Source: Sulfurimonadaceae bacterium
GTDB lineage: Bacteria; Campylobacterota; Campylobacteria; Campylobacterales; Sulfurimonadaceae
Reading direction: 5' to 3'
Assembly (NCBI GenBank): GCA_028683835.1
Contig: JAQUHB010000023.1
Location: 1-41,280, forward strand
DNA: 41,280 nt
The position numbers and the translations under genes were made by a program. Below the pieces are notes generated by a model. That model saw only the letters and a list, made by a program, of their open reading frames with translations, searched no databases and had not been told where the DNA came from. This document shows, one piece after another, positions 7,194 through 41,104 of this stretch (positions are counted from its first letter, which is position 1; the number at the start of each line of letters is the position of its first letter).

Positions 7194-7207
7194 TTGACTT
7201 AAGTTAA
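7194..7207 (-). promoter_or_regulatory. Crp/Fnr-type box (TTAAC-N4-GTCAA)
   Basis: Read toward the response regulator gene at 7113, the site is TTAAC TTAA GTCAA. The centre lies 29.5 bases from TAATAT (7171-7166), a poor -10, and 32.5 bases from TATTAT (7168-7163). It has the same half-site pair as the box at 18074-18087. It resembles the TTAAC-N4-GTTAA site of Campylobacter NssR. Confidence 0.45.
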
Positions 7208-32017: not shown

Positions 32018-33235
32018 TTAGTTTTCTCTTTCATCTTTGAGTTTAAGTGAAGTAAAAAAAGAGGCAATAAGTACTACAGACGTGATAGTGTAAAGCATTG
32101 TATAGTTGCTCACATGTAAGATCAATCCTCCAACTATTGAGAAAAACATCCCAAAAGAAACAAGATTAATCTGCAGTGCAACGTACAAAGGGCGTTTTTC
32201 TGGTGGCGCTAGAATTAAGATGAGATTTCCAGAAGCGATGCGATTACCATCGGCCGCCGCTCCGATAAGAAAAAACACTAGCATATACGCATGCAAGCTT
32301 GAAGCAAAGCTAGCAACTAAAATAGCAATCAGATGCACTGCAATCGCAAGATTGGCAGTATGTCTATTTTTACCTCTACCGCTGAGTTTTCCCCACAAAA
32401 GATTACTAAGCATTGCGCCAACCATCTGTGTAGTAATAAGTATGCCAATAGCAGATGCACTGAGATCTATGTTTGTTTTAGCGTCAAGGATAATAAAAGG
32501 CAAAGCTATAAGATAACCGTAGGCGAGTAAAAATGTAGTGATTTGAATACGAAGATCTTTATCTGATTTAAATATATCTAGAGCGTTATGTAAAAATTTT
32601 TTAAAAGAGTTCTCTCGTGGCATGATTTCCTGTTTTATAGGTTCATCTACGGTTGCAAAAGCTAGATAACCAAATCCCATAAAAAATGAACTAATAATAA
32701 AAAGATATCCATAACTTAATGGCGGCTCAAATATTTTTAGTATTAATGCTGCGAGTGAACCGCTTATTAAGCCACCTAATGCCGTAAAAAATTGTCTGTA
32801 AGCCATACTCTTGCCGCGAAATTTATGAGTAAAGATCTTTGCGAGAATATCTTTAAAATAGATCGCTCCAAAACCGGCACTAAACGAGAAGATAAAAAGA
32901 CCAAAACCAATACTAAAGAGAGTGATATCCGGATGTGACTTACCAAAAAGAACAATCGCAACTCCTATCCCAAACCATGCGAGAAAGCGTATAAGAAAAA
33001 CACGTCTGAGATAAGGCAACATCCGCTCATAACTTTGTGATTGAAAAGCAGCCAACATCTGCACTATAATCGCACCACCACGCAATAAAGATGAAAAAAA
33101 ACCAACTAAAAGTGAGCCTCCACCAAAAGCGTTCACGATTAATGGCAGGATTGTCGAAGGCTCTGCAATGGTCGTACCGATAGAGAGAAAAAATCCGTGA
33201 AGAATATTTTTTATATGATTGGAATTTTTATCCAT
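32018..33235 (-). CDS. Major facilitator superfamily transporter
   Basis: A 405-residue, about 12-helix inner-membrane transporter. The loop after helix 2 carries charged residues (SQSYERMLPYLRRVF), and a cytoplasmic central loop (DEPIKQEIMPRENSFKKFLH) separates the two six-helix halves, as in MFS proteins. The substrate cannot be named. It is divergent from the cytochrome c peroxidase operon and upstream of nrdD on the same strand. An FNR-type box at 33281-33294 lies in the shared intergenic region and would overlap this gene's own -35 region, so opposite control of the two directions is possible. Confidence 0.78.
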   Translation of the reverse strand: MDKNSNHIKNILHGFFLSIGTTIAEPSTILPLIVNAFGGGSLLVGFFSSLLRGGAIIVQMLAAFQSQSYERMLPYLRRVFLIRFLAWFGIGVAIVLFGKSHPDITLFSIGFGLFIFSFSAGFGAIYFKDILAKIFTHKFRGKSMAYRQFFTALGGLISGSLAALILKIFEPPLSYGYLFIISSFFMGFGYLAFATVDEPIKQEIMPRENSFKKFLHNALDIFKSDKDLRIQITTFLLAYGYLIALPFIILDAKTNIDLSASAIGILITTQMVGAMLSNLLWGKLSGRGKNRHTANLAIAVHLIAILVASFASSLHAYMLVFFLIGAAADGNRIASGNLILILAPPEKRPLYVALQINLVSFGMFFSIVGGLILHVSNYTMLYTITSVVLIASFFTSLKLKDEREN

Positions 33236-33280
33236 TTTACACCTTTATTCTTCATTTTTACATCAATACTATGCTCTTTC

Positions 33281-33322
33281 TTGATTTGTATCATATCATA
33301 TCCTAGACGTATGATATATACT
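33281..33322 (+). promoter_or_regulatory. Class II FNR-type promoter of the peroxidase/multiheme operon
   Basis: TTGAT TTGT ATCAT (33281-33294) differs from the FNR consensus at one position. Its centre (33287.5) is 29.5 bases from the first base of TATACT (33317-33322). Transcription would begin near 33329, upstream of the GAGGAG ribosome site (33376-33381) for the ATG at 33392. This placement excludes the in-frame upstream start at 33197. Confidence 0.7.
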
Positions 33323-33391
33323 GAGCCAACTAAAATCAACAAAATCAGTCGCGTAAAAAAAAGGTGGAAATTTTCAGAGGAGAACAGTGTT

Positions 33392-34636
33392 ATGAGATCA
33401 TTGGCTATATCAATAATTGTCGCAACTTCTATTATATTATTGCTATCATTATCAGGACTATTCACTAAAAAAGAGAGCAAACCGTTCAGTGATGACGAGT
33501 TAAGAGAAGCGGCTCTTTCTAAAAATATGTCAAGCAATCCAAGTACCTATAAAGAGCTCTTAAAAGTTGTCGATACTCCCGAAAATAGACTAAGTAAAGA
33601 AAAAATTGCTTTAGGTAAAGAGCTCTATTTTAATACAATTTTATCTAAAGAACAAGATATCAGCTGCAACACCTGTCATATGATAGACAAAGACAATAAT
33701 AAAAATAAACCTTATTCAAGTATGCTTCTCACACCTTCTAAAACTTCTCCAAAAGACTGTGTTGTGTGTCACTTATCTGATCAAAGCGGTACAGACAGAC
33801 TCTCAACCGCCATTGGATACCATCAACAAGAAAATCCTTTTCATTTAAATACTTTGAGTATTTTAAATTCTGCACTAGCCAAACATTTAACATGGAACGG
33901 AGAAGTCGATACCGTAGAGCAAGAGGCCGGAAATTCTATTAAAGATCCTTACAAAATGAATATGAGCCCATCAGAAGTTGAACAAAGACTCTCTTTAGAC
34001 AAATCGTATGTAGAAAAATTTCAAAAAGTTTTTCAAGATTCTCATAACAAGCAAGCTCCGACGCTTACTTTTTTAAATGTACAAAAAGCAATAGGCGCTT
34101 ATGTCAGAACACTTTTAACACGCGGTGATTACGATAGATTTTTAGACGGAGACAATAATGCGATAAGTGAAAAAGCGAAAAGAGGTTTGGCAAACTTTAT
34201 CACTTTTGGCTGTAAAGGATGTCACACAGGAAAAAGTGTTGGAGGACAAAGCATACAAAAATTTCCACTTAGAACCTATAACAGTATCCTTGATTTAACA
34301 ACTACTTTACACCAAGGGGAAGAAGGGAGAGAAGTAAGCCATTTTGGCTTCAATTTCAATACTTATCATCAATATCCATTTAAAAATATCGGAGGGTTTA
34401 TGGGCAAAGATGATAAGCAGTTATTCAGAGTACCTATACTGCGAAATGTAACCAAAACATCACCCTACTTTCACAACGGTTCGATTGCAAAACTGCGAGA
34501 CGCTATACACATAATGGCAAAGTACCAGCTTGGACTCAATATCACTGACACACAAACAGATGAAATAATAGCATTCTTTAAAACCTTGGATGGTGATATT
34601 GTGGATTATACTATTGACGATAAGGATAACTTATGA
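33392..34636 (+). CDS. Tri-heme cytochrome c peroxidase/MauG-family protein
   Basis: A 414-residue exported protein with an N-terminal membrane anchor or signal (about 3-22). It has three CxxCH motifs: CNTCH (92-96), CVVCH (123-127) and CKGCH (274-278). The first and third correspond to the two hemes of bacterial cytochrome c peroxidases; the second is an insertion. The family motif FRVPILRNVTKTSPYFHNG is present near the C-terminus. It would reduce peroxide or, as in MauG-like enzymes, oxidise a partner. ATG 33392 is chosen for its GAGGAG site and promoter position. The next gene overlaps by 4 bases. Confidence 0.85.
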   Translation: MRSLAISIIVATSIILLLSLSGLFTKKESKPFSDDELREAALSKNMSSNPSTYKELLKVVDTPENRLSKEKIALGKELYFNTILSKEQDISCNTCHMIDKDNNKNKPYSSMLLTPSKTSPKDCVVCHLSDQSGTDRLSTAIGYHQQENPFHLNTLSILNSALAKHLTWNGEVDTVEQEAGNSIKDPYKMNMSPSEVEQRLSLDKSYVEKFQKVFQDSHNKQAPTLTFLNVQKAIGAYVRTLLTRGDYDRFLDGDNNAISEKAKRGLANFITFGCKGCHTGKSVGGQSIQKFPLRTYNSILDLTTTLHQGEEGREVSHFGFNFNTYHQYPFKNIGGFMGKDDKQLFRVPILRNVTKTSPYFHNGSIAKLRDAIHIMAKYQLGLNITDTQTDEIIAFFKTLDGDIVDYTIDDKDNL

Positions 34637-36453
34637 AAACCGCACATATTAAAATATACTTGATCCTCATCTTTATAACGGGTTTATTACAAATAGATAT
34701 TTTACACGTTGAATGGAATTATTTTAAATATATACAAGCAATACATATTATCAGTTCTATTCTTTTAACTATTTTTCTCTTGATCCCTCTTGTCAATATT
34801 CATGTGTACAGACATTTAGTTGTAAAAAAACAAAACAGTATAAATGGCATAGTGTTAGGAGTTGTCTTATTTTTAATTACAATAAGCGGCTTTTATCTAT
34901 TTTTCATTGGAAACCGAGGCGGAGATATATATGGAATCATCTCTTTTTATATTCATCTCTATGGTTCTTTCTTTTTACTCTTAGCTTTATTTCTTCATAC
35001 AAAAAAAAGAGTTAATGCGACATTTACCTCAAAGCTTATGCTTATATTGATAGCCGGTACTTTCTACTCTACTCCTTCTTTTAGTGCTATTAGCAGTAAA
35101 CTTACCAATATCAAACTCGAAGAGAATGTTGAGAGATACCATAATCAAGATTGGACAAATTCTGCTAGATGTAAATCATGTCATACTGATATCTTTAACC
35201 AATGGGCAGATTCAAATCATAGACATATGACAGGATCAAATCCTTATTATATGGTTATGGAGAATCTGGCTGCAGAAGATAAAGGAAATGGATTTAGAAA
35301 ATGGTGTATGGGGTGTCACAACCCAAGTGCCGTAACGACAGAACAAGATAAAACAACTCATACTATGAATGGCAATATCATGCCTGATCCTCTTTTTGAA
35401 AGCGGCTCTAGCACTTTAATCGATGAGTTAAAGATCCATGGAAACTCACAGCTTGAGCAAGGAGTCTCCTGCTTGGCATGTCACCGAATCACAAAAGTCG
35501 ATTCAAGCGGAAACAGCTCATATAGCTTAGACTTAACCAATAGAAAAAAATATACTTTTGAAGAAAGTGATTCACAGACAGAGCAGTGGCTGAGTGAAAA
35601 ATTTATCAATGCAAATCCAAAAATACATAAGAAAAGCTACTCAAATAAGATTTACAAACAAAGTGGATACTGTGCTTCTTGTCATGATGAATATTTGCCA
35701 GATAGTCATCTTGGGGTCGTATCAACTTTTAAAGAGTGGGAAAAATCACCTTATAACGACCCAAAAAATCCAAATAAACACAAAGATTGTATCGATTGTC
35801 ATATGACAAATCTTAAAGACAATAAATTTTCACCTTTAAAAGGTCGCTCAACAAATGGCGGAACAATGAAAGATGACGTGAAAGTTCATTATTTTTCAGG
35901 ATCAAATCACTTTTTATCAGGTTTAAAAAATAAGATTAATGAAGATCAAACGATTCAGTTGCTTAAAACTTCTGCAAAATTGGATGTAGATATAAAAGAG
36001 GGGAAAGTGATAGTCGGTGTGAAAAATATCGGAGCAGGACATCACTTGCCCACAGGAGTTTCTGATTTTAGAGAGTTATGGCTTGAGATCACAGTTAAAG
36101 ATAAAAATAATAAAGTTGTATTTGAGAGTGGAAAACTACAAGCTGACAACAACCTTGGCAAAGATGCAAGACCTTTTATGAAGGTATTCGGGGATGAAAA
36201 TAACCAACCTGTCGGTTTGCAATTTTGGAGGTACAAAAAGCTTATAAGTGATACACGAATACCAGCAGGTGAGCGAAGAGAAGAGATTTACACTATAAAA
36301 GAGGTTAAAAAATCACAATATCCATTGACCGCCATTGTAAAACTCAACTTTAGGATTTATCCGCAATGGGTGACTAGTATAGTTCAAAAAGCATATCCGC
36401 AGCTTCCAAATCCTCCAGTCATCGAGTTGAACAAAATAGTAAAAAAGTTTTAA
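34633..36453 (+). CDS. Membrane cytochrome b-like domain fused to a pentaheme cytochrome c
   Basis: A 606-residue protein. The first about 150 residues contain five membrane helices with several histidines (AIHIISS, NIHVYRHL, FYIHLYGS, LFLHTKK), resembling a di-heme b-type anchor. The periplasmic part has five CxxCH motifs: 180-184, 225-229, 280-284, 347-351 and 386-390, similar to the cytochrome c-554 group. A C-terminal beta-rich domain with NIGAGHHLPTG follows. It would collect electrons from quinol in the membrane and pass them to periplasmic hemes, perhaps to the peroxidase-like protein encoded just upstream (4-base overlap). The b-heme assignment is inference from His placement. Confidence 0.8.
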   Translation: MKTAHIKIYLILIFITGLLQIDILHVEWNYFKYIQAIHIISSILLTIFLLIPLVNIHVYRHLVVKKQNSINGIVLGVVLFLITISGFYLFFIGNRGGDIYGIISFYIHLYGSFFLLLALFLHTKKRVNATFTSKLMLILIAGTFYSTPSFSAISSKLTNIKLEENVERYHNQDWTNSARCKSCHTDIFNQWADSNHRHMTGSNPYYMVMENLAAEDKGNGFRKWCMGCHNPSAVTTEQDKTTHTMNGNIMPDPLFESGSSTLIDELKIHGNSQLEQGVSCLACHRITKVDSSGNSSYSLDLTNRKKYTFEESDSQTEQWLSEKFINANPKIHKKSYSNKIYKQSGYCASCHDEYLPDSHLGVVSTFKEWEKSPYNDPKNPNKHKDCIDCHMTNLKDNKFSPLKGRSTNGGTMKDDVKVHYFSGSNHFLSGLKNKINEDQTIQLLKTSAKLDVDIKEGKVIVGVKNIGAGHHLPTGVSDFRELWLEITVKDKNNKVVFESGKLQADNNLGKDARPFMKVFGDENNQPVGLQFWRYKKLISDTRIPAGERREEIYTIKEVKKSQYPLTAIVKLNFRIYPQWVTSIVQKAYPQLPNPPVIELNKIVKKF

Positions 36454-36454
36454 G

Positions 36455-36862
36455 ATGGTAGCTAAATGGAAAATCTTAATTATTGTCATTTTATTTGGGA
36501 CGTTCAACCCTTTGAACGCTTCTCATGTAAGATGGTATTTTGACTTTGAAAAAGCGCACCAAGAAGCACTCAAACAAAACAAGTGCTTGATGGTACTACT
36601 TCTTCAAAAAGATTGTCCTGCATGTAAAGAGGTATTAGCTACTACATTTATGAATCAACCTTATATTAATGCCATAAATAAAAAATTCATCTCTGTCGTC
36701 ATTATTAAAGATCAAACATCGAGTTATCCCATAGAGATGCTTTATACCGTTACGTATCCGACTCTATTTTTTTTAGATAATTCAGAACTCTTTTGCTGCA
36801 AAACGTTAGAAGGAAACATAACGCCCCAAAGATTTAAAAATCATCTGAAACTTTGTAAATAG
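36455..36862 (+). CDS. Periplasmic thioredoxin-like protein
   Basis: A 135-residue exported protein with an N-terminal signal (about 1-22) and a thioredoxin-fold domain with active site KDCPACKEV (Cys54, Cys57). The pattern of the fold, including cis-Pro in TVTYPTLFFLD, resembles SoxW- or DsbD-gamma-like proteins that reduce periplasmic disulphides. It starts one base after the multiheme cytochrome gene stop. A role in keeping CxxCH cysteines reduced for heme attachment to the eight predicted hemes of the operon is plausible. Confidence 0.82.
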   Translation: MVAKWKILIIVILFGTFNPLNASHVRWYFDFEKAHQEALKQNKCLMVLLLQKDCPACKEVLATTFMNQPYINAINKKFISVVIIKDQTSSYPIEMLYTVTYPTLFFLDNSELFCCKTLEGNITPQRFKNHLKLCK

Positions 36863-37911: not shown

Positions 37912-38223
37912 ATGAACTTACTCCCTGAGAATGCTACAAAAATTGATGTTGAAAATGCAACTGTTGATTTTTTTACGTACACGAGAAATGATGTGACTTA
38001 CTATCAGTTCGATACATCCATGTGTGAACCGCCAGAGCCTATGGTAAATGCAATGATTGGATTACAACTTATAGGTTCTACAGATCACAAACTTGTTATG
38101 ATAAACCACAAAAAACCAATGGGGCTGTTAGAAAAAACAAGTCAAGATTATGACATTTACACAGAATATCTTGATGATGGACGGATCAAACTGATTTTCA
38201 GTTGTAAAAATGTTCGCGATTAA
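37912..38223 (+). CDS. DUF2249-family protein
   Basis: A 103-residue cytoplasmic protein of the DUF2249 family, marked by CEPPEPMVNAMIGLQLI and HKKPMGLLEK. DUF2249 proteins occur with NO- and denitrification-linked genes and sometimes fused to hemerythrin or sulfur-transfer modules, but have no settled function. The ATG at 37912 has AAAGGAC upstream; an in-frame start at 37867 would lie before the predicted transcription start. It overlaps the next gene by 14 bases, so expression is coupled to the oxidase-like membrane protein. Confidence 0.8.
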   Translation: MNLLPENATKIDVENATVDFFTYTRNDVTYYQFDTSMCEPPEPMVNAMIGLQLIGSTDHKLVMINHKKPMGLLEKTSQDYDIYTEYLDDGRIKLIFSCKNVRD

Positions 38224-39448
38224 TCGTGATTTTGCTCCACCGTTTAAATTAATAGCGCCCTATTTTATTATCGGGGTCTTGTTTTATCTTTTGAGCAGTC
38301 TCTTCGCCTTCTCTTTAGATATCTCCTCGATTGGATATATGGACCCTTCTGTCATAGCATGGGTGCATATATTTCTTTTGGGATTTATCATGATGATCAT
38401 CTTCGGGGCTATGGCACAACTCGTCCCTGTTGTGCTTGAAAACGGGCATTTTGCGGTAGATCTCTATTATATCATTTGGCCTTTACTCCTTTTTGGAACA
38501 CTGATGATGGCATACGGATTCATTTTCTCGCCCCTTGCCCTTCCCTTTGGTGGTTTAACTGTATTGATAGCAATGCTCACATTTCTCTTTGATACATTCA
38601 TGACCATACGAAAAATAGAAAAAAAATTAAACTTTACGATGGTTAGCGTTATCATCGCAAATATATTTTTGCTTTTAGGAGTCGTTTTCGGTATCGTTTT
38701 GGCATTGGGATACTCTGGCATGATCAGTATCAATTTAGCTGATCTTCTCAAAGGACATGTCTATTTGGTAGTTATGGGTTATATCGTGACTACTATTTTT
38801 GGCTTATCCATGGTTTTAATTCCTATGTTTGGGCTTTCGCACCATTTTTCTTGGCGTCCGATAAAAACAGCGCTTGTACTTATGAGCATTGGAGTATTAT
38901 CAGTCGCCATCTCGTCACTTTTTGATTTACTTGCTCTGAGTTATTTTGGATACTTGTTGAGTGCTTTGTCTCTTCTACTATATGTGTTTCAGATGTTTGT
39001 TTTATACAAAACCCGTGCACGCAAAGAACATGATGTGTATGCAAAATCATTATATATATCTCTTACATCGCTTGTAAGCTCATTTTTACTTTGTATACTC
39101 TATCTATTCAGTAAAAATGAAGCTATGATTTTAGTAACAGGTTGGTTAATATTTACAGGTTTTTTTGGTTTTATAATTACAGGGCATCTCTACAAGATAG
39201 TACCTTTTTTGGTATGGTTTGAGCGTTTTTCACCTCTTGTGGGAAAAGAAAAAGTACCTATGTTAGCCAATATGATACCGATAAAAAGTGCTAATTCTCA
39301 AGTTCTATTTAGTGCACTTGGTGTGTTCATAGGAGCTTACGGCTTATTTTTAAGCAACAATAATTTGTTTAAAGTCGGTGTGTTATTTTTATGTGTAGGC
39401 GGTATTTTTTTACTGCGCAATTTAATTTATATAATAAGGTTTAAATAA
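38210..39448 (+). CDS. Heme-copper-oxidase-like multi-pass membrane protein of unknown function
   Basis: A 412-residue, about 12-helix membrane protein. The segment WVHIFLLGFIMMIIFGAMAQ (His53) resembles the low-spin-heme helix of NorB and cbb3-type oxidases (compare Nor[18 protein letters not shown], also His53). Other candidate ligands are His183, His211, His212 and His326. It is shorter than NorB and lacks the NorB glutamates and the HGH-type heme motif, so it is unlikely to be a normal oxygen or NO reductase. It may bind heme and act as an NO or redox sensor, transporter or maturation factor. NnrS family membership is an alternative reading. Confidence 0.6.
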   Translation: MFAINRDFAPPFKLIAPYFIIGVLFYLLSSLFAFSLDISSIGYMDPSVIAWVHIFLLGFIMMIIFGAMAQLVPVVLENGHFAVDLYYIIWPLLLFGTLMMAYGFIFSPLALPFGGLTVLIAMLTFLFDTFMTIRKIEKKLNFTMVSVIIANIFLLLGVVFGIVLALGYSGMISINLADLLKGHVYLVVMGYIVTTIFGLSMVLIPMFGLSHHFSWRPIKTALVLMSIGVLSVAISSLFDLLALSYFGYLLSALSLLLYVFQMFVLYKTRARKEHDVYAKSLYISLTSLVSSFLLCILYLFSKNEAMILVTGWLIFTGFFGFIITGHLYKIVPFLVWFERFSPLVGKEKVPMLANMIPIKSANSQVLFSALGVFIGAYGLFLSNNNLFKVGVLFLCVGGIFLLRNLIYIIRFK

Positions 39449-39747
39449 TGTTAAATGAAGAAAAAGTATATGAGGCTATCTCAACAGTTATCGATCCGGA
39501 AGTTGGATTTAATCTAGTGGAAATGGGACTAATTTACAAGGTAGAAATCAAAGATTCCAATCATGTTATAGTGACTATGACGCTCTCAACGCAAGCTTGT
39601 CCTTTACATCAGATGATAGTGCAATGGGTAAAAGAGGCATGTGAGAGAGTTGAAGAGGTATCTGAGTGTGAAGTGAATGTAGTGTGGGAACCAGCTTGGA
39701 ATATTACTATGGCGAATGAGAATGTTAAAAAAGCTTTAGGAGCATAA
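39448..39747 (+). CDS. DUF59/MIP18-family Fe-S assembly protein
   Basis: A 99-residue protein of the SufT/PaaD/MIP18 (DUF59) family, with ISTVIDPEVGFNLVEMGLIY, the conserved Cys in STQACPLHQ, and VVWEPAWNITMANENVKKAL at the C-terminus. These proteins help assemble or repair Fe-S clusters. The start codon overlaps the previous stop by one base (TAATG), placing it in the DUF2249 operon. A role in repairing clusters damaged by NO fits the context but is inference. Confidence 0.85.
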   Translation: MLNEEKVYEAISTVIDPEVGFNLVEMGLIYKVEIKDSNHVIVTMTLSTQACPLHQMIVQWVKEACERVEEVSECEVNVVWEPAWNITMANENVKKALGA

Positions 39748-39784
39748 CATTCGTACTCTAAAGCATCTTTATGGTGCATTGATT

Positions 39785-39943
39785 ATGTTTTTTTATTTTC
39801 TTAAATGGCCATTATTGCTTGGTTTGCCAACACTCTATTTACTGAGTAACTTTCAAAACAACTATATTCTTGATTTTTTATGGGTTGTGTGTATAGTTTT
39901 AGTCTTTCAAGATTTATATCTTTTTATCTCAAAAAAGAACTAA
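39785..39943 (+). CDS. Small membrane protein, 52 residues
   Basis: An ORF with two hydrophobic segments (about 8-20 and 28-45) and a basic tail (FISKKN). It follows the DUF59 gene and lies before the cytochrome c553 promoter. From ATG 39785 there is no good ribosome site. The frame is open back to 39740, and an ATT codon at 39749 sits 6 bases after a perfect AGGAG at 39738-39742, so initiation at a non-standard ATT (adding 12 residues, IRTLKHLYGALI) is possible. I do not recognise the family. Confidence 0.45.
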   Translation: MFFYFLKWPLLLGLPTLYLLSNFQNNYILDFLWVVCIVLVFQDLYLFISKKN

Positions 39944-39956
39944 AAAGTTATTTTTT

Positions 39957-39998
39957 TTGACATAAGTCAAGCCATAGAATATAAATCTCCTATATAAT
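39957..39998 (+). promoter_or_regulatory. Class II Crp/Fnr-type promoter of cytochrome c553
   Basis: TTGAC ATAA GTCAA (39957-39970) is a perfect 5-4-5 palindrome centred at 39963.5. TATAAT (39993-39998) begins 29.5 bases downstream, identical spacing to the other boxes. The start site would be near 40005, before GGGG and the ATG at 40028. Confidence 0.75.
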
Positions 39999-40027: not shown

Positions 40028-40321
40028 ATGAAAAAAATAGCGATAAGTATTTTAGCATTGTTGGCATTGTCGAGTTCAGTCATGGCAGATGGCGCGACAA
40101 CTTTCAAGAAATGTTCAGGATGCCATGGAGCGACAGGGGAAAAATCTGCTCTAGGTAAAAGTAAGATTATTAATACTATGACAAAAAAAGAGATTGCTAC
40201 TGCTCTTAAAGGTTATCAAGACGGCACTTATGGTGGAGCTTCAAAAGGTTTGATGAAGGGACAGGTGGCTAAACTATCTGAAACAGATATCAAAGAAGTT
40301 TCAGATCTTATAGGTAAGTAG
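40028..40321 (+). CDS. Periplasmic cytochrome c553-like protein
   Basis: A 97-residue class I cytochrome c. A signal peptide (MKKIAISILALLALSSSVMA) is followed by KKCSGCHG, the single heme site, and Met in SKGLMKGQVAKLSE as the likely axial ligand. Its size fits the small soluble cytochrome c553 found in Campylobacterota, which shuttles electrons from the bc1 complex to terminal reductases or peroxidases, here plausibly NorC or the peroxidase. A rho-independent terminator follows at 40336-40356. Confidence 0.9.
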   Translation: MKKIAISILALLALSSSVMADGATTFKKCSGCHGATGEKSALGKSKIINTMTKKEIATALKGYQDGTYGGASKGLMKGQVAKLSETDIKEVSDLIGK

Positions 40322-40459: not shown

Positions 40460-41104
40460 ATGTCTGATTTAAAAAAATTTTATTTTTTTAATAACCTTTC
40501 TGAAGAACAGTTAGCGATTATAGATACCTTTGCCACACGTGTCAAAATGCCAAAGGGTTCTGTTCTTTTTTATGAAAAAGAACAACCAAAATCACTTACA
40601 TTATTAACAGAAGGTGTCTTAAAAGTTTATAAAACTGATTTAAAAAACAATGAGATTGTCATGCACCGTTTTATGCCGACAACTTTGATCGCAGAAATGG
40701 CTGTTCTTGAAGGTTTACCCTATCCTGCTTCTGCTGTATTTGAATCAGATGGTGAAGTTATTCAGATCGATTTTGCCCGATTCAAAAATGAATTTTTACA
40801 TGATCCTGATATTGCCTTTTTATTCTTTAAATCTCTTTCTAAAAAAATACGCTACCTTGAGTCAGTCATTGCTCTCAACGTTGTGCTTGATTCTACCACT
40901 CGACTTGCAAAGTTCATCTATGATACAGATGGAAATGCGCTTATCACCTATAAAAACTATCAACTAGCAGAACATCTGCATATGACACCTGAAACACTTT
41001 CACGTGTATTTAAAAAACTATTAAAACTTAATCTTCTAGAAAAAGATCTCAATAATACCTATAAAATTAAAAACAAAGAAGGGTTACAAGCGCTTTTTGA
41101 CTAG
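40460..41104 (+). CDS. Crp/Fnr-family regulator without cysteines
   Basis: A 214-residue regulator with an N-terminal cyclic-nucleotide-like effector barrel (SVLFYEKEQPKSLTLLTEG), a long dimer helix (about 115-142), and a C-terminal helix-turn-helix (NYQLAEHLHMTPETLSRVF). The recognition helix has Glu178-x-x-Ser181-Arg182, the FNR signature that reads TTGAT-type half sites. There is no cysteine, so no Fe-S cluster like that of true FNR; heme- or NO-sensing DNR/NssR-like behaviour is possible. The start at 40460 follows AAAGGACG; an in-frame extension to 40427 lacks a ribosome site. Confidence 0.87.
   Translation: MSDLKKFYFFNNLSEEQLAIIDTFATRVKMPKGSVLFYEKEQPKSLTLLTEGVLKVYKTDLKNNEIVMHRFMPTTLIAEMAVLEGLPYPASAVFESDGEVIQIDFARFKNEFLHDPDIAFLFFKSLSKKIRYLESVIALNVVLDSTTRLAKFIYDTDGNALITYKNYQLAEHLHMTPETLSRVFKKLLKLNLLEKDLNNTYKIKNKEGLQALFD

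Follow-up and report, generated by a model that had tools for sequence, protein, structure and literature searches.

A conserved operon linking an oxidase-fold membrane protein with DUF2249-like and DUF59 proteins accompanies nitric oxide-producing metabolism

The window analysed here, a stretch of 41,280 nucleotides from a Sulfurimonadaceae bacterium whose nearest named relatives are Campylobacterales and Sulfurimonas-type MAGs, contains three consecutive genes that encode a small DUF2249-like protein, a membrane protein (hereafter MEM) and a DUF59 protein (Table 1). As the initial annotation claimed, the three genes overlap: the DUF2249-like and MEM genes share 14 bp, and the MEM and DUF59 genes share TAATG. 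The survey of gene neighbourhoods that the same annotation recommended revealed that the order and strand DUF2249-MEM-DUF59 are kept in 73 of 80 named relatives' loci, and nearly all of the first 30 relatives' loci keep this order too; the DUF59 gene does not adjoin MEM in every locus. The three-gene operon is real and far from a chance arrangement, and both the operon and its type of control are conserved.

Table 1. Features of the operon and its surroundings (positions within the window)
Feature	Position	Strand	Size	Remarks
FNR/Crp-type box TTGACATTTGTTAA	37837..37850	+		upstream of operon
DUF2249-like gene	37912..38223	+	103 aa	first gene of operon
MEM gene	38210..39448	+	412 aa	12-helix membrane protein
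Codon of His53 (TM2)	38366..38368	+		candidate heme ligand; invariant
Codon of His183 (TM6)	38756..38758	+		candidate heme ligand; invariant
DUF59 / FeS_assembly_P gene (SufT/PaaD-like)	39448..39747	+	99 aa	
Small membrane protein	39749..39943	+	~64 aa	probable ATT start after GGAG 39739-39742
Crp/Fnr-family regulator	40460..41104	+		PF00027 and PF13545; neighbour, outside operon

A tiny membrane ORF had been added to this set, with a start at TTG 39779. The ORF itself is real, and relatives of it occupy the corresponding position in 10 other loci (of 103 compared), but it overlaps none of the other genes. Its relatives have in common an N-terminal stretch resembling ELRHLYGA, which the window encodes upstream of the TTG, and the DNA at the 5' end of the ORF is identical in one relative's locus (L048). 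Because the residues encoded upstream match the conserved N-terminus of the relatives, translation probably begins at the non-standard ATT that the GGAG precedes.

The Crp/Fnr-type promoter that had been proposed for the operon can be recognized as a box upstream of the first gene. The pattern TTRACNNNNGTYAA occurs at 4 sites in the window, compared with 0.3 expected. Of 105 relatives' loci, 85 carry TTRAYNNNNRTYAA upstream of their first gene; the number averaged 2.8 in 100 randomised sets and never exceeded 6. The box is likely controlled by the Crp/Fnr-family regulator encoded nearby, a homologue of which is found near MEM in many relatives. Elsewhere in the window, a perfect FNR-type palindrome, TTGACATAAGTCAA, is located at 39957-39970, where it precedes a gene for a small cytochrome c (40028-40321), and more sites of the FNR-palindrome type are present at 7194 and 18074.

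MEM has no match above the cut-off in Pfam, in NCBIfam or among the sequences of the PDB. Its structural model (mean pLDDT 92.4, built on an alignment of 33 relatives) comprises 12 helices, and the best structural matches of this model are, without exception, heme-copper oxidases and NO reductases (CcoN, Z 35.3, rmsd 3.1 and 386 residues aligned). The comparison with NorB, for which structure prediction had been suggested, likewise returned the oxidase fold (Z 33.5). A G-x7-G-x6-P motif is repeated in TM2, TM6 and TM10, and the three copies are in register by profile alignment. According to the model, MEM has the heme-copper oxidase fold, i.e., three four-helix units that match CcoN and NorB over the whole chain. 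Sequence profiles tie MEM weakly to NorB and NnrS. Transporter families, named at the outset as a competing assignment, gave no profile match in Pfam or NCBIfam and are not found among the significant fold matches.

In known structures of the oxidase fold, the low-spin heme sits between TM2 and TM10 and the binuclear site between TM10 and TM6/7, and TM2 and TM6 oppose each other across a pore that holds no cofactor in oxidases. NorB and CcoN are like MEM in their 12-helix three-unit fold and in the His on TM2, but they differ in possessing the ligands of heme b3 and CuB/FeB and a second low-spin His on TM10. NorB relatives retain His on TM2, His plus Glu on TM6, HH on TM7 and HGH on TM10, whereas MEM has no TM10 HxH, no TM7 HH and no catalytic Glu; of the binuclear-site histidines, it keeps only His183 on TM6, and the TM10 position of the low-spin ligand is occupied by W312 or another non-His residue. 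Since HxH, HH and the catalytic Glu are missing, there is no room for heme b3 or CuB/FeB in MEM. The initial annotation was therefore correct that the glutamates and HGH of NorB, which are invariant there (as is the HH), are absent from MEM, and that MEM is not a known oxidase.

His53, His183, His211 and His326 are all invariant across 110 close relatives of MEM. In a wider set of 24 sequences, which spans two phyla and three paralog classes and includes partner-less and hemerythrin-linked paralogs as well as rhizobial/Alphaproteobacteria proteins, no histidines other than His53 and His183 are invariant (24/24 each); His326 on TM10 is exchanged for Met, Asn or Gln in MEM relatives. Thus, non-conservation of the histidines, which had been put forward as an argument against a heme protein, was not observed for this pair in either set. 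His53 is, as had been noticed, invariant both in MEM and in the window's NorB; however, the idea that it marks the low-spin heme site of NorB is not supported, because the second invariant His of MEM sits on TM6 and not on TM10. Since NorB and NnrS pair TM2 with TM10, MEM probably carries one heme at another helix interface. Given that TM2 and TM6 lie on opposite sides of the cofactor-free pore, the simplest interpretation places one heme between His53 and His183. Judging from the conserved residues, MEM most likely holds a single b-type heme between these two histidines, in a position shifted relative to that of known oxidases.

NnrS resembles MEM in being a three-unit membrane protein with few conserved histidines and a link to NO, but it conserves His on TM2 and TM10, whereas MEM conserves it on TM2 and TM6. 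The Pfam search gave no match of MEM to NnrS (PF05940), and in the window's own genome NnrS is encoded by a separate gene. MEM unit 2 finds its best profile match in NnrS unit 1 (probability 76% when unit is compared with unit, 37% in the doubled test), and the profile alignment of MEM with NorB is colinear, at very low probability. The three units of MEM may be circularly permuted relative to NnrS and NorB, or the heme site may have moved by one unit; the register alone cannot decide on a permutation because the spacing of the His from the Gly motif varies, differing by one or two between known families. His211 displays a pattern of its own: in Campylobacterota, it is found in every MEM with both partners and in none with neither. 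A rule connecting His211 with the DUF2249 and DUF59 partners was nonetheless rejected, as the partner-less members form one clade and the rhizobial members have partners and no His211. For these same reasons, the pattern reflects one or two events.

MEM is flanked by a small DUF2249-type protein and an Fe-S assembly protein, as had been recognized from the start. The former scores 13.9 bits against Pfam DUF2249 (PF10006), which is below the gathering cut-off of 29.5; in rhizobia, the protein encoded at this place in the operon reaches 100 bits, well above the cut-off. The model of the window protein (pLDDT 92.3) matches TsuB (Z 8.7), SirA-like (Z 7.9) and TusA (Z 7.2) structures over approx. 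72 residues each. These Z values are modest, yet the top three matches belong to one family, and the model indicates a TusA-like fold. This kinship is supported by the partner of the hemerythrin-linked MEM paralog, for which TusA gives a higher score than DUF2249, and by the existence of a rhizobial DUF2249-TusA double domain. The fold appears to be common to the DUF2249-like protein and TusA, SirA and TsuB, whereas the catalytic Cys is theirs only. At the position of the catalytic Cys of TusA (CPxP), the window protein has P40 (PPEP), and all 42 DUF2249-like sequences have Pro or His there; this replacement of the catalytic Cys makes a TusA-type persulfide transfer unlikely. The second partner belongs to PF01883 (FeS_assembly_P; 60.9 bits, cut-off 23.5), and its Cys51 is kept in 31 of 31 relatives. 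Thus, it has the domain and the conserved Cys in common with DUF59 proteins of the SufT/PaaD type, but it misses the equivalog cut-offs of TIGR02945 (SUF_assoc; 93.6 bits, cut-off 143.4) and TIGR03406.

MEM-type proteins also occur in other settings. In the window's own genome, another contig (C78; L031 4791-6656) has an operon of overlapping genes that combines a hemerythrin and a TusA/DUF2249-like protein with a second MEM-type protein; this hemerythrin-linked paralog is approx. 28% identical to MEM and has an FNR-type regulator nearby. A third paralog class lies beside a truncated hemoglobin in 7 of 14 loci (L041, L178, L179, L180, L181, L182 and L194), where the partner-less MEM paralog divergently adjoins the truncated hemoglobin gene; one paralog clade has neither the DUF2249 nor the DUF59 partner. 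Hemerythrin and truncated hemoglobin are classic NO/O2-reactive proteins, and from these paralog neighbours it appears that each MEM class tends to have an NO-/O2-reactive or iron-assembly companion.

The distribution of the module agrees with the link to NO that had been suspected. Among 100 related genomes, genes of the cd1 nitrite reductase family are present in 41 of the 50 with the module and in 2 of the 50 without it (Fisher p 1.6e-16, kinship not corrected), where NirN- and NirF-like members were counted within the cd1 family, genomes with no MEM other than a partner-less one were scored as module-absent, and presence calls were compiled by hand at E-value limits of 1e-40 (MEM), 1e-30 (NorB) and 1e-19 (cd1 family). 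The association with NorB is weaker (39/50 vs. 13/50 genomes): 12 well-sequenced genomes with NorB are devoid of the module, and some Campylobacterota with the module have neither NorB nor the cd1 family. In eight genera that contain both kinds of genome, the module and cd1 switch together with no exception; exceptions to joint switching are genera g6, g8 and g39, plus g26. The module and NO-producing metabolism are tightly linked. Because its presence follows that of the NO-making genes, the module is likely to be part of the way in which denitrifiers survive NO.

Outside Campylobacterota, where the comparison was drawn from plasmid records, the module copies are also found among NO genes. 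On Rhizobium etli plasmid p42f, the row reads norB-norQ-norD, hemN, DUF2249, MEM homologue, DUF2249/TusA, DUF59, nnrS, nirK, nirV-like, Crp/Fnr and nnrU (the names norB, norQ and norD were assigned here from gene order and annotated product names), and a plasmid labelled Roseateles has nearly the same order. The rhizobial copies lie between hemN and nnrS, beside norD, with nor, nirK and nnrR genes also in the neighbourhood, and variant arrangements occur in Sinorhizobium medicae, Mesorhizobium and Paracoccus; the S. medicae homologue is 28% identical to the window's MEM (E 2e-19). No literature on the rhizobial MEM-homologue gene was found using guessed locus tags. The rhizobial stretches examined contain a copper-containing NirK and no cd1 gene, and on account of these nirK neighbourhoods the module goes with NO-producing nitrite reduction of either the cd1 or the copper type.

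Several other features of the neighbourhoods should be mentioned. In the window, 33197-36862 is a single run of genes: one of the MauG/diheme-peroxidase type that carries an additional heme-motif region, one for a membrane multiheme cytochrome of 606 aa and one that is thioredoxin-like. Parts of this run recur near MEM in relatives. On the Aliarcobacter butzleri plasmid NZ_CP104333.1 (L198), the module is located between Tn3-family transposase and IS21 genes, and because of this flanking it may be mobile. Three contigs from assemblies titled Helicobacter pylori, Methylomirabilis and Desulfosporosinus MAGs (L055, L109 and L124, respectively) carry typical Campylobacterota copies of the module and are probably mislabelled or misbinned.

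Taken as a whole, these observations might best be explained by a non-catalytic, oxidase-fold heme protein that, together with its partners, protects or repairs iron centres under NO, a reading to which we give an even chance. An FNR-type regulator would activate the operon during nitrite respiration, when NO is formed. MEM would have lost the binuclear O2- or NO-reducing centre of its fold and kept one b heme, held by His53 and His183, while the Cys-less TusA-like adaptor (DUF2249) and the SufT-like Fe-S factor (DUF59) would act at its cytoplasmic face. The heme would most likely pass electrons from the quinone pool to these cytoplasmic partners, or MEM might serve them as a scaffold, and NO-damaged iron and iron-sulfur centres would most likely be rebuilt, or else guarded. 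A parallel is known from Sphingopyxis: under anoxia, or on exposure to an NO donor, nnrS2 is induced, as are SUF genes and ytfE, a gene for Fe-S repair (PMC6472365), and the repair reading fits this joint induction. The narrower proposal, in which a single TM2/TM6 heme occupies the cofactor-free pseudo-symmetric pore and is used with the Cys-less TusA-like protein and the Fe-S factor for rebuilding iron centres under NO, is put forward only tentatively, as it is somewhat doubtful that all of its parts are correct together. For no member did we find an experiment that demonstrates chemistry of heme, NO or Fe-S centres.

It could also be assumed that the module repairs no damage and is instead a maturation factor that supplies iron, heme or Fe-S to the centres of nitrite or NO reductases. 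The tighter co-occurrence with the cd1 family than with NorB and the Fe-S assembly protein among the partners speak for such a role, as do the genes for NirDL-like siroheme decarboxylase and siroheme synthesis that recur beside the module (L110 2979-3995, L068 9633-10235). However, the rhizobial module goes with copper NirK in stretches that contain no cd1 gene, and some module-bearing Campylobacterota lack both cd1 and NorB genes; we regard maturation as unlikely, although it and the sensing role considered next are serious alternatives. Sensing is another option, i.e., MEM and the DUF2249 protein might sense and adjust the denitrification regulon to NO, nitrite or redox state, in the manner proposed for DrpA and DrpB of Thermus. 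Indeed, the loss of DrpA, a DUF2249 protein, alters nar expression (PMC6282519), and a Crp/Fnr regulator is a frequent neighbour of the module. MEM, however, has no output domain, an Fe-S assembly partner would not be expected of a sensor, and DrpB, the partner of DrpA, is a protein of 273 aa found in soluble and membrane fractions (PMC6282519) that is not described as an oxidase-fold or MEM-type protein; we therefore regard a sensory role as rather improbable.

A role in electron transport alone, with MEM as a quinol-oxidising cytochrome b feeding nitrite or NO reductases, would suit the oxidase fold and the invariant His pair, but it appears improbable to a high degree, given partners of a cytoplasmic type, no periplasmic cytochromes among them and a link to DUF59 that it leaves unexplained. 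Finally, a fold the same as that of CcoN and NorB might suggest an oxidase or NO reductase of a new catalytic type; the missing TM10 HxH, TM7 HH and catalytic Glu contradict an oxidase or NO reductase reading of MEM, and we consider it next to impossible.

Parts of this picture have precedents. Pei et al. (2014, Protein Sci 23:1220) described HCO-homology (HCOH) proteins, which reportedly have a 12-helix oxidase fold with two conserved histidines and one heme, and occur in a denitrification context. MEM displays the features of this type in its three-unit oxidase fold and two conserved histidines and probably belongs to the group. The link of DUF2249 to denitrification and oxidase-like proteins is also mentioned elsewhere, with reference to Pei et al. 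2014 (PMC11218638). Similarly, Thermus DrpA and haloarchaeal DUF2249 proteins are small DUF2249-type proteins in denitrification gene sets, although the window protein stays below the Pfam cut-off. What seems to be new is that a conserved triad is under FNR control and co-occurs with nitrite reductase, that the DUF2249-like partner has a TusA-like fold devoid of the Cys, and that the invariant histidines are placed on TM2 and TM6.

Bacteria that produce NO must keep their own iron-sulfur enzymes alive, and the triad offers a concrete gene set with which this question can be approached. The module follows nitrite reductase from Campylobacterota to rhizobia, and its central protein, MEM, has neither a family name nor an assigned function. 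Within the context of protein evolution, MEM appears to represent a reuse of the three-fold-repeat oxidase fold, in which the positions of the invariant histidines suggest that the heme site has moved to another interface.
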